Origin: Streptosporangium sp. NBC_01755
GTDB lineage: Bacteria > Actinomycetota > Actinomycetes > Streptosporangiales > Streptosporangiaceae
Direction of reading: 5' to 3'
Assembly: GCF_035917995.1 (NCBI RefSeq)
Contig: NZ_CP109131.1
Coordinates: 2,604,001 to 2,668,000, forward strand
Length of the DNA: 64,000 bases
Both the position numbers and the translations under genes were made by a program. Below, one piece after another: positions 13,549-47,041 of the stretch (its first letter is position 1; every line of letters starts with the position of its first letter). Below the pieces are notes generated by a model that saw only the letters and a program-made list of their open reading frames with translations, made no database searches and was not told the DNA's origin.

Positions 13549-15292
13549 CCTGGATCCACCGAGCCGATTCTGAACTGAAGATCCTGAAATGAGAGGAGGT
13601 GCCCTCCGACCTGGGATGATGGGAGTTCTTCAGGCTTCCGCCACCTTGATCGAGAGGACACCTCTCAAGTGCAATTGTTCCACGACTCTGCCAAGACCCA
13701 TGCGATCTTCGATGAGGAGCGTGTAGTCGCGTACGGCGGGCTGGGGCCGGTGATGCGGTTGGCCGAGCGGTGCGGCCTGAGCGACCTGGCGGGCGAGCAC
13801 GTCACTCCCACCGGCCGGGACGGCGTGAACCCGGCGGCGAAGATCGGCTCGATCGTAGCCGGGATGGCCTGCGGGGCCGACAGCATCGATGATCTGGACG
13901 CACTGCGCCACGGCGGCATGGACACGTTGTTTACCGGTATCCGCGCACCGTCCACGCTGGGATCGTTCCTGCGGTGCCTGGCCTGGGGCAACGTCCGGCA
14001 GATCGAGAAAGTGGCCCGCCTGCTGCTGGCCCGGCTGGCCGCCCATACGCCGTTGCTGCCCGGCGCGGACGTGCTCGCCTTCCTCGATGTGGACTCGATG
14101 CAGCGACGTACCTACGGCTACAAGAAGCAAGGATCGGGGTTCGGCCACACCAAGATCGGCGGCAAGGGCGTGCTGGTGCGCGGACTGAACGTGCTGGCCT
14201 CCACACTGTCCACACCGCTGGCCGCCCCGGTGGTGACCGGCACCCGGCTGCGCGGCGGAAGCGCGAACTCCGCCCGCGGCGCGGCCTGGTTCGTGCGTGA
14301 GTCGATCGGCGCGGCACGATCAGCGGGCGCGAGCGCCACCCTGATGATGCGCGGGGACTCGGCGTTCTACACCGCAGGCGTGATCAACGCCTGCCACACG
14401 AACGACGTGCGCTTCTCCGTCACCGCCAAAATGGACCCCAAGATCAAAGCCGCGATCGCGGCGATCGACGAAACCGCCTGGACAGCGATCAAATACCCCA
14501 ACGCCATCTTCGACGAACAAGCAGGGGGCTGGATCTCCGACGCCGAGATCGCGGAGGTCGCCTACACGGCGTTCGCCGCGAAGAAGGGCCAGGCCATCAC
14601 CGCCCGGCTGATCGTGCGCCGGGTCAAACGGCTCAACTCGCAGACCGGGCTCCGGCCAGAGGAACCGTTCCCGCTCTACCGCTATCACGCGATCTTCACC
14701 GACAGTCCGTACGCCCTCGGGCAGGCCGAGGAACAACACCGTGATCACGCGGTCATCGAGCAGGTCAACGCGGACTTGATCGACGGGCCATTAGCGCACC
14801 TGCCCTCGGGCGTGTTCACCGCCAACGCCGCCTGGCTGACCTTGGCGGCGATCTGCCACAACCTGCTGCGCGCGGCCGGCTGCCTGGCCGGAACCTTTCA
14901 CGCCAAGGCGCGCGGCGCCACCCTGCGCCGCCATCTCATCGGCGTGCCCGCCCGCATCGCCCGGCACGGCCGGGGCCACCTCACCCTGCATCTTCCCCGG
15001 TATTGGCACTGGCGGCACGCATGGATGAACCTCTTCCAAGCCGTCCACCGGCTGCCACCGATCCGCGCGGCTTGACCCGTCCCCGCCCTGCCACCACTCT
15101 TCCCTCGACCTCCACGGTCACCCGCGCCCTCGCGCACGAACCCCGCCCCCGAGCCCGTGAACGCCTGGACAATCCGTGACCCGCGCACGGCGGGTTCTCC
15201 ACACCCCAAATCAGACCCCCGTCAGGCAAAACGGTCCTGGTGAAGGAATCGAACCGAAGAATGATCACCAGAATTCACGCCGTGGATCCAGG
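13549..15292 (+). mobile_element. IS1380-family insertion sequence, 1744 bp
   Basis: Terminal inverted repeats begin CCTGGATCCAC at both ends and are flanked by the 5-bp target duplication CTGAG (13544-13548 and 15293-15297). One transposase gene fills it. It disrupts the nuclease-like gene at 12623-15796. The clean ends and intact transposase suggest a fairly recent insertion. Confidence 0.92.
13669..15075 (+). CDS. IS1380-family transposase
   Basis: This 468-aa DDE transposase has the first Asp in VLAFLDVDSMQRRTYG (near residue 142) and the second in MMRGDSAFYTAGVI (near 228). A C-terminal acidic block EEQHRDHAVIEQVNADLIDG follows. The family ending AAWLTLAAICHNLLRAAG is near 395. Full length for IS1380 transposases. 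It lies entirely within the inverted repeats at 13549-15292. Confidence 0.93.
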   Translation: MQLFHDSAKTHAIFDEERVVAYGGLGPVMRLAERCGLSDLAGEHVTPTGRDGVNPAAKIGSIVAGMACGADSIDDLDALRHGGMDTLFTGIRAPSTLGSFLRCLAWGNVRQIEKVARLLLARLAAHTPLLPGADVLAFLDVDSMQRRTYGYKKQGSGFGHTKIGGKGVLVRGLNVLASTLSTPLAAPVVTGTRLRGGSANSARGAAWFVRESIGAARSAGASATLMMRGDSAFYTAGVINACHTNDVRFSVTAKMDPKIKAAIAAIDETAWTAIKYPNAIFDEQAGGWISDAEIAEVAYTAFAAKKGQAITARLIVRRVKRLNSQTGLRPEEPFPLYRYHAIFTDSPYALGQAEEQHRDHAVIEQVNADLIDGPLAHLPSGVFTANAAWLTLAAICHNLLRAAGCLAGTFHAKARGATLRRHLIGVPARIARHGRGHLTLHLPRYWHWRHAWMNLFQAVHRLPPIRAA

Positions 15293-31796: not shown

Positions 31797-34700
31797 CTAG
31801 CCAGGCCGACCTGTCCCCTTGTCGATCGCGGCCTCGTAGAACGCGTCGGCGAGGGCCACGATGATCCCTTTGATCGCAGGCCCGTCAGTGAAGAAGTAGT
31901 CAGCCATGGCGTTATGCGCCTCCTGGTTGTCGGCGACGACCTCGGTGACGGCGGACTGGAAGTCCTGCGACTCCATGAACTGCTTCTTCGAGTTCACCCG
32001 GGTCTGCTGGACCAGGTCCGGGTCGGCGAGCAGTCGCTGCACGAGCCCCTGCACGAACTCCCGGATCTGGGACTCGGCGAACGACTCGGCACCGAAGAGG
32101 TCGTTCATCTTGTCGATGACGACCTGGAGCGCGACGTACTTCGGCTCCTTCTTGGTGCCGGTGCCTGCTGCGCCGATCCCCTTCAGCGCACTGTCTCCGG
32201 TCAGCGAGATGTCAATCGCGATTGCCTTGCTGTGCTTCACACCGACCAGGACTACGTCCGAAAGGTCGACGTCGGCGCTCCATGAGGACTCGGCGATGAC
32301 CTTCTCCAAAAGCCGGAGGAAGATCGAGAGCATCTCCATGTACGGGTCGCCGTAGTCGACGATCTGGCTCATGAAGTCATAGAGCCGCACGTAGGTGGAG
32401 ACGTCCTTGCGGAAGAGGTCGAGCGTGTTGAGCGTGACCTTGTCCTCGGTCTCGATCGCTGCCGCGTAGCGACGCCGGAAGTCGTGCTGGGCCGGGCTGA
32501 TTGCCGCCGAGAGCGCGTTGTTGCCCTTGCGGGTGACCCACAGCTCGGCGACCTGGCGGACCTGCTCCTCGGTGTAGATCCCCGCGTGGGCGAGCTTGGT
32601 CGCGAGGTGTATGACGACGTACGGGTTGGTCTCGGTTTCCAGGGTGGCGTTGGTGAAGTACGGATCGAAGGCGGTCTTGATGTCGTCGGGCTTGTTGATG
32701 AAGTCGATGACGAACGTCTTGGTCTTCTGCTCCCCGCCGGCGGTGCGGTGGGTTCGGTTGAGCCGGGAGAGCGTTTGCACGGCGGTGACCCCGGAGAGCT
32801 TCTTGTCGACGTACATCGCCGAGAGCAGCGGCTGGTCGAAGCCGGTCTGGAATTTGTTGGCGACCAGCATGATCTTGTACGTGTTGCCCTTGAACGCCGC
32901 GGCCAGGTCGGCGCCCGATCCGGGGTTCATTTTGGCCTCGGTGAAGTCGTCGTCCTTCGACGGCGTCGGCCCCCAGTCCTGGCTCCACGTCTCGTTCTCG
33001 GTCATCGACACCGACCCGGAGAACGCGACCAGGGTCCGGTAGTTGTACGACGCGTCCTCGGCGGCCCGCTTGGCGATGTAGGCGTCGATCGCCTTCTTGT
33101 ACTTCACCGCGGCCTTGCGCGAGTCGGTGACGACCATCGCCTTCGCCTTGCCCTCTAGCAGGTGGGCGACGTTGGCGTGGAAGTGCTCGATGATGATCTG
33201 CACCTTCTGGCTGATGTTGGTCGGGTGCAGCTGTACCCACCGCATCAGTCCCTTGCGCGCGGCCGACTCCTCGACCTCGCCGCCGTCGCCGCTCTCAGCC
33301 TTGCCGGCGATCTTCAACGCGGTGTCGTAGGACTGGTAGCCCTTGAGCACGTCGAGGATGTAGCCCTCCTCGATCGCCTGCTTCATGGAGTACAGGTGGA
33401 ACTCGTGCGGCTCGCCGTCCGGCCCCGTGCGGCCGAACAGTTCCAGGGTCTTGTTCTTCGGGGTTGCGGTGAAGGCGAAGTAGGAGATGTTCTCCGACTC
33501 GGCCCGCTCGGTCATCTCCGAGGCCAGGATCGCCTCGATGTCGACCGAGCCTCCGTCCTCGATCTCCTTGATCTCCTCGGCGGTCAGAACCTGTCTCAGC
33601 TTCGAGGAGATCTGTCCCGACTGTGAGGAGTGCGCTTCGTCGGCGATGACGGCGAACCGCTTGCCCTTCAGGCCGGAGTCGGCCCGGATCTCGTCGAGGG
33701 CGTGCGGGAAGGTCTGTACCGTCACCGCGATGATTAACTCGCCGTTCTTCAGCGCCTGTGCCAGGAGGCCGGACTTCGACTTCGCGCCGGCCTTGCGCAC
33801 GTCCTCGGGGCTGATCGTCGCGACGATCTTCCCGCTGCCGTCGATCTGCCGGATCGCGTCCTGAAGCTGTCCGTCGAGCACTGTGCGGTCGACGACCACG
33901 ATGACCGAGTCGAAGACCTTCTCATCATCGACGTGGAGCCGGGCGAGACGGTGTGCCGTCCAGGCGATCGTGTTCGTCTTCCCCGACCCCGCGGAGTGCT
34001 CGATCAGATAACGCTGGCCGACACCTTCCTCAGCCACGGCGGCCACGATGTCCGTGACCGCCTCCCACTGGTGGAACCGGGGGAACAGCATGTTCGTACG
34101 GCGCACCGACGTGCCGGTCGTGACGTCCCACTCCTCCTTGGTCTCCACGATCATTAGCCGGCCGATGATGTTGAGCCAGGCGTGCTTCTCCCAGACTCGC
34201 TCCCACAGGTACGCCGTCGCCGACCTCCCGTCCGCACCAGGTGGGTTCCCGGCGCCGTCGTCGAAGCCGGTGTCGAACGGCAGGAAGTGCGTATCCTCGC
34301 CTTCCAGCCGGGTCGTCATCGCGGCGAAGTCGTTGGAGACCGCGAAGTGGACCAGCGCCCGGTGCCCGAACGACAGCAGCGGCTCGCGCCGACCGTTGGT
34401 CAGCGGATTGCGCTTCTTCTGGTACTGCTGGATCGCCTCGTTCAGCGACTGGGTGAAGTCGGTCTTCAGCTCCACCGTCGCGACCGGGAGCCCGTTGACG
34501 AAGAACACCAGGTCGATGCTGCGCTGGTCGGCGGTCGAGAAGTGCACCTGCCGCATCACCCGGACCCGCATCGCCGCATAGTGCGCGTTCGTCGTCTCGT
34601 TCAGCGTCGTCTCGGGCCGGAACTGCGCCATCTTCAACCGGCCACCGCCGATGAACTGCACCCCGTTCCGTAGGATGTTCAGCATCCCACCGCCATGCTC

Positions 34701-34937
34701 CAGCGGCTTGTCCAACGCCGTCGTCAGCACGTCGAGAAACTTCGCCTGCGACCCGGCCGCCTTCAGCGCCTTCTCGTACGCCGGCTTCTGGGTCGCCTCC
34801 AGCCAGGCGAACAGATCCTCGGGGAACAGCGCCCGCTCACGGTCGTAGCCGGTGTCGTCCGCCGAGTACAGCCACCCGTGGACCGCGAGGTACTCGCAGA
34901 TCTCCGTCTCGAAGACGACCTCGTTGTAATCAGCCAT
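31797..34937 (-). CDS. hsdR: Type I restriction endonuclease subunit R
   Basis: This 1046-aa protein has the N-terminal PD-(D/E)xK nuclease with Asp in RSIDLVFFVNG and VATVELKTD (ExK near 157-159). The superfamily-2 translocase has Walker A IEHSAGSGKTNTIAW (317-321), DEAHSSQ (about 434) and helicase motifs YFAFTATPKN, VANKFQTGFDQP and QTLSRLNRTHR. It cuts unmethylated DNA after ATP-driven translocation with HsdM and HsdS. The ATG at 34937 shares its A with the hsdS stop (TGATG). All motifs look intact. Confidence 0.95.
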   Translation of the reverse strand: MADYNEVVFETEICEYLAVHGWLYSADDTGYDRERALFPEDLFAWLEATQKPAYEKALKAAGSQAKFLDVLTTALDKPLEHGGGMLNILRNGVQFIGGGRLKMAQFRPETTLNETTNAHYAAMRVRVMRQVHFSTADQRSIDLVFFVNGLPVATVELKTDFTQSLNEAIQQYQKKRNPLTNGRREPLLSFGHRALVHFAVSNDFAAMTTRLEGEDTHFLPFDTGFDDGAGNPPGADGRSATAYLWERVWEKHAWLNIIGRLMIVETKEEWDVTTGTSVRRTNMLFPRFHQWEAVTDIVAAVAEEGVGQRYLIEHSAGSGKTNTIAWTAHRLARLHVDDEKVFDSVIVVVDRTVLDGQLQDAIRQIDGSGKIVATISPEDVRKAGAKSKSGLLAQALKNGELIIAVTVQTFPHALDEIRADSGLKGKRFAVIADEAHSSQSGQISSKLRQVLTAEEIKEIEDGGSVDIEAILASEMTERAESENISYFAFTATPKNKTLELFGRTGPDGEPHEFHLYSMKQAIEEGYILDVLKGYQSYDTALKIAGKAESGDGGEVEESAARKGLMRWVQLHPTNISQKVQIIIEHFHANVAHLLEGKAKAMVVTDSRKAAVKYKKAIDAYIAKRAAEDASYNYRTLVAFSGSVSMTENETWSQDWGPTPSKDDDFTEAKMNPGSGADLAAAFKGNTYKIMLVANKFQTGFDQPLLSAMYVDKKLSGVTAVQTLSRLNRTHRTAGGEQKTKTFVIDFINKPDDIKTAFDPYFTNATLETETNPYVVIHLATKLAHAGIYTEEQVRQVAELWVTRKGNNALSAAISPAQHDFRRRYAAAIETEDKVTLNTLDLFRKDVSTYVRLYDFMSQIVDYGDPYMEMLSIFLRLLEKVIAESSWSADVDLSDVVLVGVKHSKAIAIDISLTGDSALKGIGAAGTGTKKEPKYVALQVVIDKMNDLFGAESFAESQIREFVQGLVQRLLADPDLVQQTRVNSKKQFMESQDFQSAVTEVVADNQEAHNAMADYFFTDGPAIKGIIVALADAFYEAAIDKGTGRPG

Positions 34938-36184
34938 CACGCAGCCTCTCGTACGTCGACCTGACCCGTCACGGCAGCGGTGATGAGTGCCGACCGGCGC
35001 TCGCGAGCGAGCTCGATCAGGCGCTGCGTCTCTGCGATGAGCGCGTCAATCTTCTCCGTCTGCTCGTCAAGATGGACCGCGATGTGGTGCTGCTCAGCTA
35101 TGGACGCCGTCGGCACCCGAAGACCCTTGATGTCATCGAGAGCGAGTTGCATCTTCGCCCCGCCTGCTGCTCCCTGGTTGAGTTGGTCTTGGCCTACGGT
35201 GGTCAGCATGAACCACCCCGCGAACCTTGAGTCCAGGCGGTCTGGATCGAGGCGGCAGAGGGCTACATGCTGGCTTACATACGAACCGACCCAGTCGTTG
35301 TCGACCACGGCTACGGATCCCAGGTAGGCGGTGATGGAGAAGAGCAGGTCTCCTGCCTCTAGTATCGTCCGCGAGCCTTCGGTCACGTCAGCCGGGAGGC
35401 TAACGAACTGGACCTCGCCCCGGATGCTCAGGTTCGTACGAGGCAGGTTTCCGATTCGCAGGAACCGCTCGCCGTCGTCGGCGTAGTAGTCGCCCCAACC
35501 GCGGGACCCGCTTGTTAGAAACTTGATGTACCGGCGCAGTTGCACACTGGGCTCGCCGAGAGCAGCGAAGGCTGCGTCCACAACCGCCTGCCGCCGCTCG
35601 CGGAGCATCTCGATCAGGCGCTGCTGCTCCTCGATGAGCGTGTCGATGCGGGCGGTCTCGCAGTCGAGGTAGTCGGCGATGGCGCGCTGCTGCTCCACCG
35701 GCGGCAGCGGGATCGGTACGCATGCGAGCTTTTCGGCCGTAAGGTGTGGCATCGACACGACGTTGCTGTAGGCGCGAATGTAGCCGCTTGCCCGCAGTGC
35801 GATGAGGTAGAACGCGATGAAGCGTCCATCGAAGTCGCCGATGGGTCGGAGTCGGTTGATTGAATTCTGGAAACCCCAGCCCGGAAGGTCGTTTTCGACG
35901 TAGGCAGCACGGCCGAATCCGCCTTGCCCGCCTTCGACAACGACGACATCGCCCGCCCGAATGCTCAACTGCTCCAGTTCGGCTTCGCCGAACCACATCT
36001 CGTTCACGTCATCGAGGGCAAGCAAGCCCTCGGGTTGCACGTTGGCTGCGCGCATGTATGGCGCGCTCACGTCACTGCCGCCGTCCTTGCTCTGGAGCAT
36101 CTTGCCGAGCGTGACCGTCGCGACATTTTTGACCCGGCCAGTCAGCCAACCGTCCGGCAATCTCGTCCACAGCGGCCCGGTCAC
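34937..36184 (-). CDS. hsdS: Type I restriction specificity subunit S
   Basis: This 415-aa protein has two target-recognition domains. TRD1 is at about 1-150, with RVKNVATVTLGKMLQSKDGG. TRD2 is at about 210-340, with GSRGWGDYYADDGERFLRIGN. Each is followed by a conserved helix: LPPVEQQRAIADYLDCETARIDTLIEEQQRLIEMLRERR and IAEQHHIAVHLDEQTEKIDALIAETQRLIELARERR. It guides methylation and cleavage to a bipartite sequence that cannot be deduced. The ATG overlaps the hsdM stop by four bases. Confidence 0.95.
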   Translation of the reverse strand: MTGPLWTRLPDGWLTGRVKNVATVTLGKMLQSKDGGSDVSAPYMRAANVQPEGLLALDDVNEMWFGEAELEQLSIRAGDVVVVEGGQGGFGRAAYVENDLPGWGFQNSINRLRPIGDFDGRFIAFYLIALRASGYIRAYSNVVSMPHLTAEKLACVPIPLPPVEQQRAIADYLDCETARIDTLIEEQQRLIEMLRERRQAVVDAAFAALGEPSVQLRRYIKFLTSGSRGWGDYYADDGERFLRIGNLPRTNLSIRGEVQFVSLPADVTEGSRTILEAGDLLFSITAYLGSVAVVDNDWVGSYVSQHVALCRLDPDRLDSRFAGWFMLTTVGQDQLNQGAAGGAKMQLALDDIKGLRVPTASIAEQHHIAVHLDEQTEKIDALIAETQRLIELARERRSALITAAVTGQVDVREAA

Positions 36185-37926
36185 TGCTCGACCTCCCGCA
36201 GCAGGTCAAGGATCTTGGCGACCTGTTTCTCCAGGTCGGCGTCGATCTCGGCAAGAGGGCGGGGCGGGACGTACTTATAGAACTGGCGGGTGAAGGGGAT
36301 CTCGTAGCCGACCTTGATCTTGACCCAGTCGATCCAGGCGTCGGGAACGTGCGGCTTCACCTCTGTGTCGAAGTAGGTCTGAATGACCTCGGCCTTGCCC
36401 GCAGGTCCGGCCGTCGAGCCGCCGTAGGTGAAGGGCACGTTCTCGGTGTCGCGCTTCTTGGAGTCGGGCTTCGGCTTGCCCTTGCGGTCGACGACGGGCT
36501 TGCCGCCCTCACCTAGCAGTGGCTGCTCGACGGTGATGGTCCAGTAGCCGAACTCGTCGTTGCGCAGCACCTTGGAGAAGTCGAGGTCGGCGTCGGTGAA
36601 GTCGGCGTACAGCCGGAGGATCTTAGCGCGGTCGGGGTCACTGAGTTCGCGGTTCTTAGCCCCAAGGTTCTTGCGCATCTTGGTCCAGAACGAGCTGCCG
36701 TCGATGAGCTGGACTAGGCCCTTGCGGTCGGGGTGCTTGGTGTTGTCGAGGATCCAGATATAGGTGGCGATGCCGGTGTTGAAGAACATGTTGGTCGGCA
36801 GCGCGACGATCGCCTCGACCAGGTCGTTCTCCAGCAGCCACTTGCGGATGTTGGACGGGCCGGACTCCGCGGCCCCGTTGAAGAGCGGCGAGCCGTTCAT
36901 GACGATCCCGACCCGGCCGCCGCCGTCCTCAGGGGCGCGCATCTTGTGCGCCAGATGCAGCAGGAACAGCATCTGGCCGTCCGAGGTGGCCGGCAGGCCC
37001 GGCGCGAAGCGGCCGTACGGGCCTGCCTCGTCACGCTCCTTGGTGACGGCCTTGACGTACTGCTTCCAGTCGACGCCGTACGGCGGGTTGGACATGCAGA
37101 AGTCGAACTGGCGGCCTTTGAAGGCGTCGTCAGTGAGCGTGTTGCCGAAGGCGATGTTGGACGCGTCGTGGCCCTTGGCGAGCAGGTCGGACTTGCAGAT
37201 CGCGTAAGACTGTGGGTTGTACTCCTGGCCGTACAGGCTCAGCCGGGCGTCTGGGTTCTGCGCGAGCAGGTGCTCCTCGGCCAGGGTGAGCATGCCGCCG
37301 GTGCCGGCGGTGGGGTCGTAGAGCGTGCGGACGATCCCGGCCTCGGTCAGGTCGGCATCCTTCTCGGCGAAGAGCAGGTCGACCAGCAGCCGGATCGCGT
37401 CACGCGGCGTGTAGTGGTCACCGGAGGTCTCGTTCGCGGCCTCGTTGAACTTGCGGATGATGTACTCGAACGCGTCCCCCATGTCGGCGTTGGACACGAC
37501 ATCGGGGTGCAGGTCGACGGCACCGAAGGACTTCACAATCTCGCGCAGGAGACCGGCCTTCTCCAGGGCGATGATCTCTTTCTTGAAGTCGAAGTACTCG
37601 AACACATCAACATCGGCGGAGAACCGGTCGATGTAGTCGACGAGGTTGTCTTCGAGCCCGTCCGCGTCCTTCAGCAGGTTGGCGAAGCTGTACTTCGAGG
37701 TGTTGTAGAACGGCCGGCCGGTGGCCTTCTTGATCTCGATCCGGAGCCGGTTCGGGTTCTCGTATGCCGCAGCCAGGTCTCGGACGGTGTCGCGGTCCGG
37801 CTCCAGGATGCAGTCGAGGCGCCGAAGGATCGTGAACGGGAGGATCACGTTCCCGTACTGGTTGGGGCGGTAGGGACCTCGAAGCTGGTCGGCGATCGAC
37901 CAGATGAAACTACCGAGCGTGCTCAC
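36181..37926 (-). CDS. hsdM: Type I restriction methyltransferase subunit M
   Basis: This 581-aa N6-adenine methyltransferase starts at GTG 37926 (VSTLGSFIWSIADQLRG), which matches the family start and has a GAGGAG site. The N-terminal helical HsdM domain is at 1-130. SAM motif DPTAGTGGML is at 204-211 and the catalytic NPPYGVDW at 280-283. It forms the M2S core with hsdS and hsdR downstream. Complete three-gene cassette in hsdM-hsdS-hsdR order. Confidence 0.95.
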   Translation of the reverse strand: MSTLGSFIWSIADQLRGPYRPNQYGNVILPFTILRRLDCILEPDRDTVRDLAAAYENPNRLRIEIKKATGRPFYNTSKYSFANLLKDADGLEDNLVDYIDRFSADVDVFEYFDFKKEIIALEKAGLLREIVKSFGAVDLHPDVVSNADMGDAFEYIIRKFNEAANETSGDHYTPRDAIRLLVDLLFAEKDADLTEAGIVRTLYDPTAGTGGMLTLAEEHLLAQNPDARLSLYGQEYNPQSYAICKSDLLAKGHDASNIAFGNTLTDDAFKGRQFDFCMSNPPYGVDWKQYVKAVTKERDEAGPYGRFAPGLPATSDGQMLFLLHLAHKMRAPEDGGGRVGIVMNGSPLFNGAAESGPSNIRKWLLENDLVEAIVALPTNMFFNTGIATYIWILDNTKHPDRKGLVQLIDGSSFWTKMRKNLGAKNRELSDPDRAKILRLYADFTDADLDFSKVLRNDEFGYWTITVEQPLLGEGGKPVVDRKGKPKPDSKKRDTENVPFTYGGSTAGPAGKAEVIQTYFDTEVKPHVPDAWIDWVKIKVGYEIPFTRQFYKYVPPRPLAEIDADLEKQVAKILDLLREVEQ

Positions 37927-38520
37927 AAGGCTCCTCACGAGAATCACTCAACGTGCATAATTACGCTGGCCCACTGGGGTAGTTGTAGCCCGGGCAAGGC
38001 AACGCACGTCCGCTGGCGGGGGTCATGAGGCCATCTTCGCGCACCTCGGCCTCCTGCGTAACCGGGAAGTCAGGCCCGCCCGCACCGTAGCGGAGGGGGC
38101 CGACATAAAGCGCGAGCAACGAGAGGTCAGGCAGCCTCGGTGAACTTCGCGCCTGCTGGACGTGAACGGCCCAACACAACCGGGAACCTGGCTGCTGTCT
38201 CGCTCGCTCCTCTGAGCGGTCCGCCGAGTTCCAAGACACCGTCGCCGCGCCGGCGCCCCGACGCGTTGCCGAAAGGCTCGCCTTGCAGGTACGGGGGCGG
38301 GCTTCCCGGCGGACCACCGCCATGAGTATGGGCAAGGAGAATGAACAGTGTCGAGCCGGTTTTGGGAGCCATACTGGGAGCCAAGGGTCTGTACGGTCCC
38401 GGACCCGCCTGAACCGATATGAACGAGCGGATCCTTCACGACCTGTGCGGCGAACTGGTCTGAACGCTCCTGGCCAGCGTTTGGGAATCTACGGATCAGA
38501 AGGCCAGAGGCAGCAGCGGA
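37927..38520. other. Spacer upstream of hsdM, no supported gene
   Basis: Several open frames on both strands lack consistent GC3 bias. One minus-strand frame near 37990-38130 ends in a plausible coding-like tail (YVGPLRYGAGGPDFP), so a decayed gene is possible. The hsdM promoter should lie at its left end, but no clear -35/-10 pair is seen. Confidence 0.4.
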
Positions 38521-40511: not shown

Positions 40512-40616
40512 GGGGGTTGAGGTGCGTCGGCGTTTATAAATCCGATCTTCCGAACCTCTTAATCCACATATATGATCTCTTACCCAGTAGATCGTTCCAA
40601 TCGTGAGAGTGTGCCT

Positions 40617-42371
40617 GTGGCCCGTAGCGAGTTGACGTCAAGCGATCCCAAACGCATTGGAAGTTACCGACTGCTCGCCAGGCTAGGTGCCGGAGGAATG
40701 GGGACGGTCTATCTGGGACGGACCAAGAACGGGCGGGCCGCGGCTATCAAGGTCGTACGCTCAGATCTCGCCAATGACGCCAGCTTTCTGGCCCGGTTTC
40801 GCCGCGAGGCCAAGACGCTCCTCCTCATTGGAGGCAGCTTCACGAGCCGCGTCATCGAGATGAATCTGGAGGCCAGCCCTCCCTACCTCGTAACCGAGTA
40901 TGTCGACGGTCCGTCTCTTTCTGATCATGTAGCTCAAGAAGGGCCGTTGAACTCCGAGTCCACTCGTGCCCTCGCGGTTGGACTCGCTGATGCACTCCGG
41001 TCGATCCATGCAACAGGGGTCGTTCATCGCGACCTTAAGCCCAGCAACATCCTGCTTTCGACTGCTGGCCCCAAGGTCATCGACTTCGGAATCGCTCAGA
41101 CACTCGACGCAACGTCGATCACGCGAACTGGGGTCGTTGTCGGATCCGCCGGATACATGGCGCCCGAACAGTTCGAGGGGCAGGGAGGTCCGCCCGCGGA
41201 CATCTTCGCGTGGGCCTGCACTGTGATGTTCGCAGCGACAGGTAATCCGCCGTTCGGTTCCGGTCCATTAGAGGCCGTGGTCTTTCGGCTCCGCAACGAA
41301 GCTCCGGCGCTTGACGGCCTGCCCGAGGGCCTTCAATTGGTTGTCGGTGCTGCCCTGAAGAAGGACCCCGCTGAGCGTCCAACGGCCGATCAGTTGATGA
41401 CGCTACTCATTCCCGAGTCGGAGACGTCCGCGGCCCGAACCACCGAGTTGACTTTGAGTCTCCTGGCGGAATCCTGGACCGTATCGATTCCTGAACCGGA
41501 GAGCGAGCAAGGAAGGCGAGGTAACCGAACCTGGCTGGTGGGCGGGATTACTGCTGCTGTTGTAGCCAGTGTTGGAGTTTCGATACTCCTTTATGAAACT
41601 CCCAGGACAGGCGATGATGAAGCGAACGCCGGCACTCGGGGCGCTCCGAGTGCCGCCCCAACACATTCGGCCCTAGTCGCGATGTCTGCTTCACCAAGTA
41701 AATCGTCCGCATCCAACGCGAAGCCGGGAACTCCTCTAGAAATCGCGGACGCTGCTCTCGCTGTAGCCGAAGCTATGGGAACGGCGCAGTTCAGCTTGAA
41801 GTCATCCGGCTGGGACGAGATGTGGTTCGAGGCTCAGGGAGAGCTTGCATTCCACCCGCCTGCAGCCACTCGCTATCGGATGGATCTAACCTACTTCGGT
41901 GACAACGAGGGTGCGCAGTCGGTAGCAAACGTAACACTTGTCGGCAACCGCGGTTTCGATACTGCCTCCGAGAATCCGACAGACGCCGATATCAATGGTG
42001 GAATCGCCGACCGTAATCTTCCCGAGCCCTTCATGACAGCCCGTCGCGTTCGCTGGGCGAGTTCGCCGTACGTTATTCAGGCCCTTGCCGCAGCGTCTTC
42101 TAATATGAAGAAAACTACAATTGGCGGGCAGATCTTCCTTAAGGGAAGCGCCCCGATGTCGAAGATGGCAAAGTCGGCCACCGTGGGCCCGTTCTACAAG
42201 TTCCTCGCTGCTTTCTCGAAGGAACGAAGTATCAAGTTCACCATCATTGTTGATCAGAATCTTGCCCCTAGTCGCGTAATTCAGTCCATCCCGGTTTTCG
42301 ATTCCGTTGTCATACCAGTAACAACGACATATAGTGACTGGGGAATGCCATCGGAGCCGAAGATCCCATGA
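40617..42371 (+). CDS. Receptor-like Ser/Thr protein kinase with LppX-like extracellular domain
   Basis: It is about 584 aa from GTG 40617; ATG 40572 would add 15 residues, and neither has a strong ribosome site. The kinase domain is at about 16-265: glycine loop LARLGAGGMGTVYLG, Lys in AAAIKVV, catalytic VVHRDLKPSNIL, KVIDFGIA and GSAGYMAPEQFEG. One membrane helix follows near 305-325, then a Ser/Ala linker. A 190-residue extracellular domain ends SIPVFDSVVIPVTTTYSDWG. That domain resembles the secreted protein at 59097-59906. Signals would enter from outside; targets are unknown. An unusual cargo type for an AICE. Confidence 0.88.
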   Translation: MARSELTSSDPKRIGSYRLLARLGAGGMGTVYLGRTKNGRAAAIKVVRSDLANDASFLARFRREAKTLLLIGGSFTSRVIEMNLEASPPYLVTEYVDGPSLSDHVAQEGPLNSESTRALAVGLADALRSIHATGVVHRDLKPSNILLSTAGPKVIDFGIAQTLDATSITRTGVVVGSAGYMAPEQFEGQGGPPADIFAWACTVMFAATGNPPFGSGPLEAVVFRLRNEAPALDGLPEGLQLVVGAALKKDPAERPTADQLMTLLIPESETSAARTTELTLSLLAESWTVSIPEPESEQGRRGNRTWLVGGITAAVVASVGVSILLYETPRTGDDEANAGTRGAPSAAPTHSALVAMSASPSKSSASNAKPGTPLEIADAALAVAEAMGTAQFSLKSSGWDEMWFEAQGELAFHPPAATRYRMDLTYFGDNEGAQSVANVTLVGNRGFDTASENPTDADINGGIADRNLPEPFMTARRVRWASSPYVIQALAAASSNMKKTTIGGQIFLKGSAPMSKMAKSATVGPFYKFLAAFSKERSIKFTIIVDQNLAPSRVIQSIPVFDSVVIPVTTTYSDWGMPSEPKIP

Positions 42372-43179: not shown

Positions 43180-44075
43180 GAACTCCTAACAGAATGCGAT
43201 CAGTGGTTGAGGCGTCGCCAGCAGATGATGGCGGAGGCGAGGGTCATGAAGGCTTCATGGATGTCGTCGCGGATTTCCCAGCGGATGCGTAATCGGCGAA
43301 ACCAGTGCAGCAGGGCGATCGTCTGCTCCACCACCCACCGATGCACGCCCAGGCCGGAGCCGTGCGGAATGCCTCGGCGAGCAATGATCGGCTCGATTCT
43401 CTTCTCCCGTAGCTGACGGCGATAGCGGTCGTGATCGTAGGCGCGGTCGGCGTACAGCGTTCTGGGACGTCGGCGAGGCTTGCCGACCTTGCCGCGGACC
43501 GGCGGAATCGCCTCCACGAGAGGCATGAGCTGCAGGATGTCGTTGCGGTTGCCGCCGCCGAGGCTGACCGCCAGCGGGATACCGTTCCCGTCTGTGATCA
43601 CATGGTGCTTCGAGCCGGTCCTGCCTCGATCGACCGGGCTCGGGCCGGTTTTGGGCCGCCCTTGAGCGCCCGTACATGGGAGCTGTCGATCACCGCCTTG
43701 GACCAATCCAGCCGGTCAGCGGCGTGCAGCTCGGCCAGCAGGAGTTCATGGAGCCGCTTCCAGACGCCGGCTTGGTTCCAGTCGCGCAATCGTCTCCAGC
43801 AGGTCATCCCCGAGCCGAACCCCCAGCTCCTGGGGCAGGAACTCCCACGGGATCGCGGTGTAGAGCACGAACAAGATCCCGCACAGTGCTTTGCGGTCGT
43901 CAATCCGCTTGCGTCCGGGATTGCGGTAGCGGCATTCGATCGTCGGAAGCAACGGATCGATCCGTTGCCAGAGCCCATCGGGCACGAGCCACGGTGGCTG
44001 CTCGCCCTTCCTCACAATGGGTTCAACGACCGATCATGTTCCCGGATGCGGCCGACCTCATTCTGTTAGGAGTTC
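43180..44075 (-). mobile_element. IS5-family (IS427-like) insertion, about 896 bp
   Basis: Inverted ends GAACTCCTAACAGAATG (43180-43196) and its exact complement (44059-44075) are flanked by TAA duplications. The transposase is split over three frames on the minus strand. Inserted inside an att-like sequence. Confidence 0.88.
43200..44015 (-). pseudogene. IS5-family transposase with two frame breaks
   Basis: The first frame runs from ATG 44015 (MRKGEQPPWLVPDGLWQRID to LPQELG). The middle frame continues GFGSGMTCWRRLRDWNQAG to AVIDSSHVRALKGG. The last frame is RTGSKHHVITDGNGIPLAVS to LASAIICWRRLNH, ending at 43200. The second break lies at CCCAAAA (about 43656), a typical -1 slippery heptamer expected in this group. 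The first break coincides with a run of five G (CTGGGGGTTC near 43828) and looks like a one-base insertion. Full activity is therefore doubtful. Confidence 0.8.
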
Positions 44076-44134: not shown

Positions 44135-47041
44135 TTACTCCATAACCTCTGTGAGCCCTTCAAAGATAGCTTCGCTATCCAATTCGTGACCCCTGTCGAT
44201 ACTCTTAAGCCTAGCCACAGTCTTGACTACCTGGTCCGGATAGTAGAGTTCTGGTGCAAGGCAAATAGGGCAGTCGGCCAGGATACAGAAGGGGAAAAGT
44301 GGTATCACTTCGCCCTGTAGCGTTAGCATGTAGAGATTGTTGTCGGCAACGGGTTTGCCGGTCTCGAAGCTGACTGGCTCAAAGTCGGGATGGTCTCCCA
44401 TTAAGAGCAGTCCAGATACCCGATAATTCCCGCGCTTTAGCTGCCAGCTAAGCCTCTCTGTGTATATCCACTTCGTTTTTTCGAGAAAGGCGCTATAGGT
44501 GAGGGCACTGAATAGGAGTGGCTCTAGCTTTGCCAGGCTCGTTTCTATCTCTGCCCTAGTGCGAGGCCCGCCACCATGCCTGATCTCGTTTCGGATGTTG
44601 GCGAGAGCCGAAAGGTCTGCAATAAGGCCCTTTCCTCCCCTCTTTGCAGCGGTAGCTTGGCCAAGGCCAGTTACCTCATCACCGTTTTTCCTCAGCTCGT
44701 TTCCAACTGCCCTTGTTACTCCAACCCAGTGGCCCACTGAGACGCCCGAGGAACGTGCGGCTTCCGTCCACTTGGCTATTTCGTTTACCTCCGTTCGCTC
44801 TCTATACGCTGCGAGGGATAGTGAGATAATCCCCAGGGAGATAATCAAGGTCTCGGCACATTGGAGTGCTGCTTCGTGCTTTTCAGCGAGGGCCCGGCTA
44901 TGCTGAAACTTGCGGACAGCACGCGCGATTGCATAGGGGTACGTTTGCTGAAAGACATGATATGGCTCAGTCTGCTTGCGGAGAGTCTGGATGATCAAAG
45001 AGCTTAGGTCTGCTGCCTGTTCCAGTCGTATTCGTCTGTCCCTTTTGGCTCCGTCTTCGAAGATGCTCACCCGGGACTCATCGAGTGCGTCTTGGATCCG
45101 CTTTATTTCGCCGACACCCTCGCTGAGAACTGAAACGGCGGAGCGAATTGACTCGAAATCTCCTTCGCATGCTGGGATCCGCAGATTGACCAGGTCACGT
45201 ATACTGACACGTGGAATCGCTGCTCCATGACGTGGAATGGCTTGCTCTGCTTGAGGGCTTAATAGATAGGAAGCTACGTATTCCGCAGGAACTATATTGC
45301 GAGTGATCCTAATTATTAAGACCCACTGGCCAGCTTGAACACCTTCGTATTCACTGGGAAGTACCGTCCAGTAGCGACCACCCCCCATGGCTCGACCCAC
45401 TATGTCTCCCTCACGGAGACGGTTTGGTCGTCGATCGGTGGTGTGAATTGGAAGGTCGTCAACGCTTGGCAATGGAGACGTCAGAAGCGAGGCGTGCAGG
45501 ACTCTCTGCTCATTACGAATATCGGCAGGGCGCGCATCCCATTCGATTTCCTGCCCTGGTACCCATCCAGTGTGGATCTCGGCGAAGTCGCCAAGTCGCC
45601 AGTCTTCGACGCGCCCAGTTCTCGTTCCCTCACCGATCTCTCGGTAGCAGTTGATGCTGAGATTGTAGCCCTGGGCAACTATCTCCTTTTTGGCTACACA
45701 GAAGCTCTGCTCTGAGCGTCTTCGCTTCCGCTCGCTATCGTTCCTGTGTGCCCAACGGGCGACCACATCGGGCAGGTTGTTCCTCGCCATTTCGCCGTCT
45801 TCCAGCGCTGCAGCAGGGCGTGGGCCAGTCTTATTCTCGTCGAGCAACGGAATGTGTCTGCCGTCAAGGCTGAAGCCGTCGGCGGTCACTTCATAGAACC
45901 AGACATTGTCTGTTCCGCCGCTGTTGGTTTTAGTAAAGAGGAGGATCGATGTGGAAATTCCACTGTACGGTTTGAAGACGCCGCTCGGTAGTTTGATCAC
46001 CCCATCTAGCTTGTGTTCCTCTACTAGGACTCGGCGCAGCTCCTTGTGTGCTGCAGAGGAACCAAACAGCACGCCATCCGGAACGATGACGGCGGCGCGG
46101 CCACCGGGCTTGAGCAGATGCAGGAACAGGGCCAGGAACAGCAGTTCGGTCTTCTTGGTCTTGACGACCTGGAGCAGATCCTTGGCGGTGGTCTCGTAGT
46201 CGAGGCTGCCCGCGAACGGTGGGTTGGTCAAGATCAGCGAATATCGCTCGAACTCGTCGGCCACGTTCTGGGCCAGGGAGTCACGGTAGCGGATATCGGG
46301 CTGTTCGACTCCGTGCAGCAGCATGTTCATACTGGCGATCCGCAGCATGGTCGAGTCGAAGTCGAACCCGTGGAACATGCTGTGGTTGAAGTCTCGTACG
46401 TCAGCCGGACCAATCAGTGCGTCGTTGTGGACACGAGCTATGTAATCGGCCGCCGCAACTAGGAAGCCAGCCGTGCCGCAGACAGGGTCGCACACTTCAT
46501 CTTCAGGGCCGGGAGCCATCATCTCGACCATGAGCTGGATGATGTGCTGGGGCGTACGGAACTGCCCGCTCTGCCCGGCTGTGGCGATCTTGCTGAGCAT
46601 GTACTCGTATAATTTTCCCCCCGCGTCGCCCTCACCTAGGGGAAGTTCGTCGAGCAGGTCGACAACTTTTGCCAGCAGATCAGCCGTTGGGATGGCGAGC
46701 AGTGCGTCTCTCAGGTGATGGGCGTAGGTTGTATCAGCCCTCACAGCAGACCGGAGCCACGGGAAGACCTCGTCTCGAACGACGCTGAGCATCCTGTCCG
46801 GCGGCAACGCCTTGAACCGGGACCATCGCAGGTAGTCCGTCTCCGTGGTGTAAATGGGATTCTCAACCGGCGTGCCGGTGCGTTCATGCCGGTCGTCTTT
46901 GGAAGCCTGGATAACATCCAGCTTTCGTATGAACAACAGATATGTGACCTGGTCGACTACCTCGACAGGGTTGGAGATTCCGTTGGACCAGAACGCGTCC
47001 CACAACCTGTCGATCTTGCTCTTGAGCTCATCTAGAACCAC
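44135..47041 (-). CDS. Solitary HsdM-HsdS-HEPN-like fusion (candidate defence protein)
   Basis: This single frame encodes 968 aa. Residues 1-460 are a type I N6-adenine methyltransferase: N-terminal LKSKIDRLWDAFWSNGISNP, SAM motif DPVCGTAGFL (185-192), catalytic LTNPPFAGS (273-276). Residues 478-640 are one HsdS-like target-recognition half: WRLGDFAEIHTGWVPGQ, REGDIVGRAMGGG, YVASYLLSPQAEQAIPRHG. Residues 690-968 are a helical domain with ANIRNEIRHGGG (R817-x4-H822), the HEPN RNase-type motif. A Cys pair, LADCPICL, follows near 923. No HsdR or separate S lies beside it. I infer DNA methylation coupled to an RNase-like effector. Bases are AT-richer than neighbours, fitting transfer. Confidence 0.8.
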   Translation of the reverse strand: MVLDELKSKIDRLWDAFWSNGISNPVEVVDQVTYLLFIRKLDVIQASKDDRHERTGTPVENPIYTTETDYLRWSRFKALPPDRMLSVVRDEVFPWLRSAVRADTTYAHHLRDALLAIPTADLLAKVVDLLDELPLGEGDAGGKLYEYMLSKIATAGQSGQFRTPQHIIQLMVEMMAPGPEDEVCDPVCGTAGFLVAAADYIARVHNDALIGPADVRDFNHSMFHGFDFDSTMLRIASMNMLLHGVEQPDIRYRDSLAQNVADEFERYSLILTNPPFAGSLDYETTAKDLLQVVKTKKTELLFLALFLHLLKPGGRAAVIVPDGVLFGSSAAHKELRRVLVEEHKLDGVIKLPSGVFKPYSGISTSILLFTKTNSGGTDNVWFYEVTADGFSLDGRHIPLLDENKTGPRPAAALEDGEMARNNLPDVVARWAHRNDSERKRRRSEQSFCVAKKEIVAQGYNLSINCYREIGEGTRTGRVEDWRLGDFAEIHTGWVPGQEIEWDARPADIRNEQRVLHASLLTSPLPSVDDLPIHTTDRRPNRLREGDIVGRAMGGGRYWTVLPSEYEGVQAGQWVLIIRITRNIVPAEYVASYLLSPQAEQAIPRHGAAIPRVSIRDLVNLRIPACEGDFESIRSAVSVLSEGVGEIKRIQDALDESRVSIFEDGAKRDRRIRLEQAADLSSLIIQTLRKQTEPYHVFQQTYPYAIARAVRKFQHSRALAEKHEAALQCAETLIISLGIISLSLAAYRERTEVNEIAKWTEAARSSGVSVGHWVGVTRAVGNELRKNGDEVTGLGQATAAKRGGKGLIADLSALANIRNEIRHGGGPRTRAEIETSLAKLEPLLFSALTYSAFLEKTKWIYTERLSWQLKRGNYRVSGLLLMGDHPDFEPVSFETGKPVADNNLYMLTLQGEVIPLFPFCILADCPICLAPELYYPDQVVKTVARLKSIDRGHELDSEAIFEGLTEVME

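Follow-up and report, generated by a model that had tools for sequence, protein, structure and literature searches.

Many HEPN RNases function as dimers in which both subunits contribute to one active site. In the sections of a 2013 survey that deal with restriction-modification (R-M), HEPN domains associated with such systems are stated to be fused 'not to the methylases' but to cutting and helicase parts, and the functional argument made there rests on HEPN avoiding methylases; Table 1 of the survey nevertheless notes that DUF86-type HEPN domains are occasionally fused to nucleic acid methylase domains (PMC3710099). HEPN-helicase and HEPN-DUF499 ATPase proteins related to R-M or BREX tie an HEPN endoRNase to a DNA-recognising defence enzyme, and the HEPN domain of these fusions was proposed to be a backup or suicide effector (sections of PMC3710099 and of PMC12839542 from 2026). 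In the anticodon nucleases PrrC and RloC, as presented in the survey, the HEPN RNase is kept in check by a sensor that is coupled either to DNA or to a type I system (PMC3710099). Methylase, target-recognition domain (TRD) and effector share one chain in Type IIG enzymes and in DndH, the latter consisting of an inactive methylase, a TRD and an REase according to the corresponding part of PMC10853773. An engineered half-S variant of EcoR124I is described as working as a symmetrical enzyme (parts of PMC2877798 and PMC3320862).

The 64-kb stretch of DNA analysed here (the window) contains a gene in which a methylase and a TRD precede a helical HEPN-like domain and a beta domain. The two latter domains are referred to as the HEPN-beta module. 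The features of the locus are as follows.

31797-37947, minus strand: complete type I operon hsdR-S-M, about 6 kb from the focal gene and on the same strand
43200-43706, minus strand: fragment of a DDE transposase (PF01609), adjoining the focal gene
44135..47041, minus strand: whole focal gene, 968 aa, GTG start, in the order HsdM_N, N6-methylase, TRD, HEPN-like, beta-CxxC
46655..47026, minus strand: HsdM_N domain, residues 6-129 (PF12161, E 2.1e-12)
45638..46627, minus strand: N6-adenine methylase domain (Pfam N6_Mtase), residues 139-468
46463..46489, minus strand: SAM motif I, DPVCGTAGF, residues 185-193
46214..46225, minus strand: catalytic motif IV, NPPF, residues 273-276, intact in the focal protein
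44978..45601, minus strand: single HsdS-type TRD and coiled coil, residues 481-688 (fold alignment with 7eew and CamA, up to residues 649-663)
44477..44977, minus strand: HEPN-like helical domain, residues 689-855
44576..44593, minus strand: RNEIRH, an HEPN-type R-x4-H motif (R817, N818, H822)
44138..44476, minus strand: C-terminal beta domain with GDHPDF, CPIC and KSIDRGH, residues 856-968 (strands in the predicted model)
44261..44272, minus strand: CPIC pair (C924, C927)

The 968 codons fill 44135..47041 as one real gene, while the plus strand of the same interval is shut by stops. The combination of a methylase, its own recognition half and an HEPN-like domain in one chain, proposed in an earlier note on this DNA, was borne out, as was the solitary position of the gene; motif I and NPPF are intact, and RNEIRH lies at residues 817-822, in agreement with that note. 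Pfam and structure alignment both give the HsdM fold of a type I modification subunit, with HsdM_N and N6_Mtase, and the best PADLOC match is a type I methyltransferase model covering residues 3-471. Residues 469-968, comprising the TRD, HEPN-like and beta domains, had no Pfam match at E <= 1. The predicted model aligns over residues 7-663, i.e. methylase and recognition half, with PDB 7eew, described as a one-chain type I modification enzyme; the domain orientation differs (rmsd 21.2), and chain 7eew_A is too short for the HEPN-beta module because it has 610 residues. A scan for promoters and terminators gave results near chance.

Several known enzyme types were considered for this architecture. 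Type IIG was rejected, as no nuclease family was found in Pfam scans of the 49 aligned family rows at E <= 0.1, and BREX PglX (24.8 bits, cut-off 500) and MADS MAD2 (99.6 bits, cut-off 720) were set aside too, with scores far below the cut-offs of the curated equivalog or exception models. The effector of Type IIG enzymes and DndH is a DNase, and none is seen in the focal protein. In the R-M- and BREX-related fusions the partner of the HEPN domain is a nuclease, helicase or ATPase in the accounts cited above, whereas here it is a methylase with a TRD and no cleavage partner is seen. PrrC and RloC have an ABC ATPase as front end and PrrC works with a complete type I operon, unlike the focal protein. 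The fusion contradicts the general statement of the 2013 survey, yet it is not the first HEPN-methylase fusion, since the DUF86-type cases are noted in Table 1 (PMC3710099). In the titles and abstract openings found among open-licence PMC texts on HEPN domains with methylase or specificity parts, no methylase-TRD-HEPN fusion was described.

The structure model of the HEPN-beta module was obtained with high confidence (pTM 0.90, pLDDT 91.4). It contains a helical bundle with the RN-xxx-H motif in a late helix, as in HEPN domains (module residues 131-149, followed by a helix at 154-174), and the motif agrees with the HEPN pattern R-x4-6-H with a polar residue after the Arg. The HEPN proteins HepT, 2q00 and MtlR are among the seven best VIA rows for the module model, with weak matches. 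With Foldseek, the module matched nothing in PDB or among viral models at E <= 0.001, a result that leaves room for families outside the listing, and searches of the module sequence against solved structures gave one chance match each. None of the curated HEPN profiles reached its own cut-off in the 31 module members; weak matches below the cut-off were obtained with HEPN_RiboL-PSP (4/31) and DUF4145 (2/31). Since the curated profiles cover named subfamilies, this argues against membership in a named HEPN subfamily and not against the HEPN fold. E730 is invariant, while the Ex3[KR] spacing of the typical second acidic HEPN residue was not seen. The motif was retained in the wider module alignment as well (Arg in 29 of 31 rows, Asn and His in all 31). 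Judged from the prediction, fold and motif of the C-terminal region look HEPN, a likeness and not a proof; the earlier note had named a non-HEPN fold as the first of two findings that together would speak against its reading, and the model points the other way.

For the conservation analysis, 49 rows were aligned, consisting of the focal protein, 46 of its 49 best matches and the more distant P0055 and P0060. The relatives share 82-42% identity with the focal protein (full-length alignment). Three of the best matches (P0007, P0042 and P0050) were left out due to a shortened front; they read DPPF, NPPF and NPPF, respectively, and all keep RN-xxx-H. R817, N818 and H822 are invariant (49/49 rows), and so are G882, D883, H884 and P885 of the beta domain and the two cysteines C924 and C927, which are also present in 31/31 module rows. 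Asn273 of NPPF, by comparison, is Asn in 33 rows, Asp in 3 and His, Lys, Thr, Ala, Ser or Arg in 13, so that the catalytic Asn is missing in 16/49 rows, or in 13/49 if Asp is tolerated. P275 (49/49), F276 (46/49) and D-P-x-C of motif I (D185, P186, C188; 49/49) are mostly kept, and the SAM and base pocket may therefore survive the loss of Asn. Among 68 control HsdM relatives without the module, NPPF was present in 68/68. These comprise 68 of the 71 listed relatives P0051 to P0121, with P0055, P0060 and P0064 excluded as module carriers, and they take in chains with other C-terminal domains as well as P0051, which has NPPF and resembles the N-terminal part of a family member that has been split; its contig is as long as that of P0131. 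No control row matched either of the two module profiles, even at E 10.

Asn273 has changed repeatedly. A quick tree, from which the motif columns had been left out, requires at least 10 changes between Asn or Asp and any other residue, and 13 with a three-state split. Some clusters with a changed Asn hold many sequences (P0031 54, P0038 11, P0036 10), and the changes are thus not single sequencing errors. At the level of loci, RN-xxx-H was found in 15/15 and motif IV began with N in 10, D in 1, H in 3 and K in 1; this set overlaps the 49 rows and includes the readable ones among 18 loci (L020-L035, L052, L115), after exclusion of L022, L033 and L035 with broken or cut frames. Loci L020 to L051 were found by two patterns, one of which was MGDHPDF, and the invariance of MGDHPDF among them hence means nothing. 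An apparently equal conservation of TRD and methylase (pairwise 0.55 vs 0.549) was weakened by per-domain trees (length 21.5 vs 16.0).

Many relatives thus have a methylase part that looks defective next to a preserved motif of the predicted RNase, a pattern more suggestive of a shutdown switch triggered by DNA than of an ordinary methylase. The opposite view, a solitary methylase of the ordinary kind whose HEPN-like domain is no enzyme but a structural or RNA-binding helical tail, agrees with the intact NPPF of the focal protein and the weak structure matches of the module, and non-catalytic HEPN domains have been described, e.g. as part of MtlR (survey section of PMC3710099). It would predict the reverse of the conservation seen (RN-xxx-H in 49/49 rows, Asn in 33/49), and the module also exists without any methylase, for example behind apparent membrane anchors; we regard this view as quite improbable.

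After loss of Asn, the branch length of the methylase region relative to that of the HEPN region showed no significant speed-up (13 vs 31 rows, p 0.43), which, with so few rows, is weak evidence for a retained non-catalytic role. The absence of a detectable speed-up would also fit an integrated decoy, in which the M-TRD part serves as bait for Ocr- or ArdA-like anti-restriction DNA mimics and binding of these, not of DNA, frees the HEPN RNase; a protein of this kind could lose catalysis and still retain its DNA-binding surface. Such a decoy would need no R subunit; the closest solved structures include 7eew_A, described as a one-chain modification enzyme in complex with Ocr, and PARIS and PrrC respond to anti-restriction proteins according to passages of PMC12707154 and PMC3710099. 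On the other hand, the Asn kept in 33/49 rows is needless for a pure bait, and P0127 and P0128, which could be split genes, have TRD and module with no methylase in the chain. A decoy is considered unlikely, if less so than a mere helical tail.

The surroundings of the gene were compared with those of its homologues. The focal gene has a GC content of 53-59%, compared to 65% for the window. The interval separating the focal gene from the type I operon encodes, at 40572-42371 on the plus strand, a protein of 599 aa that contains a protein kinase domain (PF00069) and whose gene has a third-position GC of 0.61, low for the host genome. The actinobacterial sRNA Ms_IGR-7 (RF02469, 55.2 bits) was found at 13550-13666 on the minus strand.

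The earlier note had seen no R subunit adjacent and held that homologues always lying beside hsdR, together with a non-HEPN fold, would mark an ordinary type I or IIG variant. Thirty stretches of 8-21 kb (L020-L036, L052-L054, L115-L124) were scanned with the HsdR, HsdS and HsdM of the window, and a match to this HsdR, the only one used in the scan, was obtained in 3/30, two of them with their own hsdM: L022, with own hsdM and hsdS; L023, with hsdR 0.2 kb downstream on the opposite strand and own hsdM genes; and L036, with a weak match about 5.7 kb off. The HSDR_N profile had no match in 9/17 genomes, nor in 7/16 further genomes of mixed lineages. SWI2_SNF2 matched 16/17 genomes, with E < 1e-10 in eight genomes only, which are those that also have HSDR_N; the weaker matches, mostly in frames some 550-750 aa long (a few > 1000), were read as other helicases, for which reason HSDR_N was kept as the HsdR count, although both profiles could miss a divergent HsdR. 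Homologues are thus not always beside hsdR. Clustering of neighbouring ORFs of at least 90 aa over 16 loci (L020-L035) yielded no conserved neighbour, only ORFs in other frames overlapping the gene and one three-locus clade (L028, L030, L034), and an operon partner was accordingly rejected. The gene is usually solitary.

The focal protein was rejected as an ordinary M subunit for the type I operon nearby, since hsdM and hsdS are already present in that operon and relatives occur in the absence of hsdR. Nor does the locus correspond to a classical type I system with separate HsdS and an HsdR partner, as the TRD lies in the chain itself. The protein could alternatively be a PrrC-like accessory of the hsdR-S-M operon, with the HEPN domain restrained by the complex and freed when the complex is inhibited. 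The complete operon on the same strand and the type I genes near L022 and L023 would fit; the rarity of HsdR in the scanned stretches, the lack of an HSDR_N match in 9/17 and 7/16 genomes and the presence of M and TRD in the focal chain do not, and an accessory of this kind is very improbable.

With slightly better than an even chance, this single gene is an abortive-type defence switch: DNA, or an anti-restriction protein, would be sensed by the M-TRD part, and the HEPN RNase would be the effector. For this switch, we infer RNase chemistry, a resting lock, a trigger and a defence role as follows. The front two thirds would act as a type I modification enzyme in one chain, with M and a single TRD, that recognises a DNA target and probably pairs on DNA like other half-S enzymes; the back third would be an HEPN RNase joined to the conserved beta/CxxC domain. 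In the resting state, two HEPN domains would be kept apart or shielded by the M-TRD part. Once a non-self trigger binds, this clamp would change, so that the HEPN domains are released or dimerised, with pairing of two chains on the target bringing together or unlocking two HEPN domains. The freed domains would cut RNA, and growth would stop ahead of phage spread. Where NPPF is intact, self is probably marked by methylation of the target. In members without the catalytic Asn, the M fold may act only as reader or bait: the host may have no site, another mark may be read, or M-TRD may be bait for anti-restriction proteins. A mechanism common to all members cannot be centred on methylation, because Asn is missing in 16/49 rows and other relatives have a methylase remnant or none. 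Simple sensing of unmethylated DNA, put forward in the earlier note, cannot hold for members without catalytic Asn or methylase, which probably cannot mark their own genome; the damaged-DNA sensing mentioned alongside it found no specific support. If the RNase is real, one protein would convert a DNA sequence or its modification directly into RNA cleavage, and genes named 'N-6 DNA methylase' would be abortive defence effectors. The size of a single gene makes for easy testing.

The prevalence of the module is low. It was found in 10/396 genomes of a phylum sample and in 6/394 of a class sample (own genome and weak matches counted), and a TRD plus module query matched 28/392 genomes of a presumed Streptomyces sample, mostly with membrane-type and second-lineage chains. 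Phage or plasmid cargo was rejected, since no phage record and only 3 plasmid records were found; the focal lineage accounts for one of these and the second lineage for two. For a Streptomyces plasmid copy, a gene of the HNH endonuclease family lies 0.8 kb upstream and no other R-M gene is annotated in the 21-kb stretch around it. The second-lineage copy L054, on a Streptomyces plasmid, has an annotated caspase family protein about 5.6 kb downstream (L054:14408-15562). A single gene with patchy distribution, a plasmid copy and a GC content below that of its window could also be a selfish addiction unit, with methylation of host sites as antitoxin to the fused RNase and killing of cells that lose the gene. 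Yet 13-16 of the 49 rows are without a credible catalytic Asn, and toxin and antitoxin in one chain would be lost together, which leaves hardly any probability for an addiction unit.

The HEPN-beta module, which is absent from Pfam, is common to two HsdM lineages, degenerate methylases, lone TRDs, helicase-nuclease-like chains and membrane anchors. The second HsdM lineage (about 1100 aa) is nearer to the ordinary HsdM of the window than to the focal methylase: chains that matched both did so with E 1e-90 to 1e-150 for the former and 1e-7 to 1e-11 for the latter. It has NPPW or NPPY in chains with the motif in view, with RN-xxx-H or RN-xxxx-H. Tens of actinobacterial proteins and this second lineage show a fusion of a methylase with the HEPN-like module, and in the focal family it is the catalytic Asn, not the RNase motif, that decays. 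The module stands behind a degenerate methylase and a TRD in L036, L056, P0135, P0136, P0138, P0124 and P0125, and ends long chains in L012, L014 and L016, where the motif Arg is Lys and the front parts were read by eye as helicase-nuclease-like. The switch proposed for the focal gene may belong to a class of DNA-reading RNases, in which M-TRD sensors of DNA sequence or modification, with dispensable and repeatedly lost methylase chemistry, are wired in one chain to a shared HEPN-beta module; this wider proposal is tentative and falls somewhat short of probable.

Stand-alone proteins of about 420-520 aa with the HEPN-beta module were found among L037-L051 and L088-L102 (in part in both), and two apparent N-terminal membrane helices precede the module in those of the L037-L048 proteins that were read by eye. 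P0140 has a PF05157 domain and the module in one chain. The standard RN-xxx-H is absent from the wider-family members P0124, P0125, L109 and L114; P0124 and P0125 have RNRIH at this position, and their methylase is degenerate too. A sister HsdM group (P0059, P0063, P0065, P0067-P0070, P0073, P0080, P0088, P0096, P0102) has PF18755 and CBS (PF00571) domains but ends in another C-terminal region, where RNDLMH or RNGLMH is present in 12/12, and NPPF is intact in 12/12; its C-terminus has slight profile similarity to the focal module, and the group is possibly a second, independent HEPN-methylase fusion. The focal-type HsdM may be a platform for swapped effectors. Among relatives of the same HsdM, a TIR family domain (PF13676) was found in the chain of P0072 and a domain of an Mrr-like nuclease family (PF04471) in that of P0066, in both cases instead of the module.
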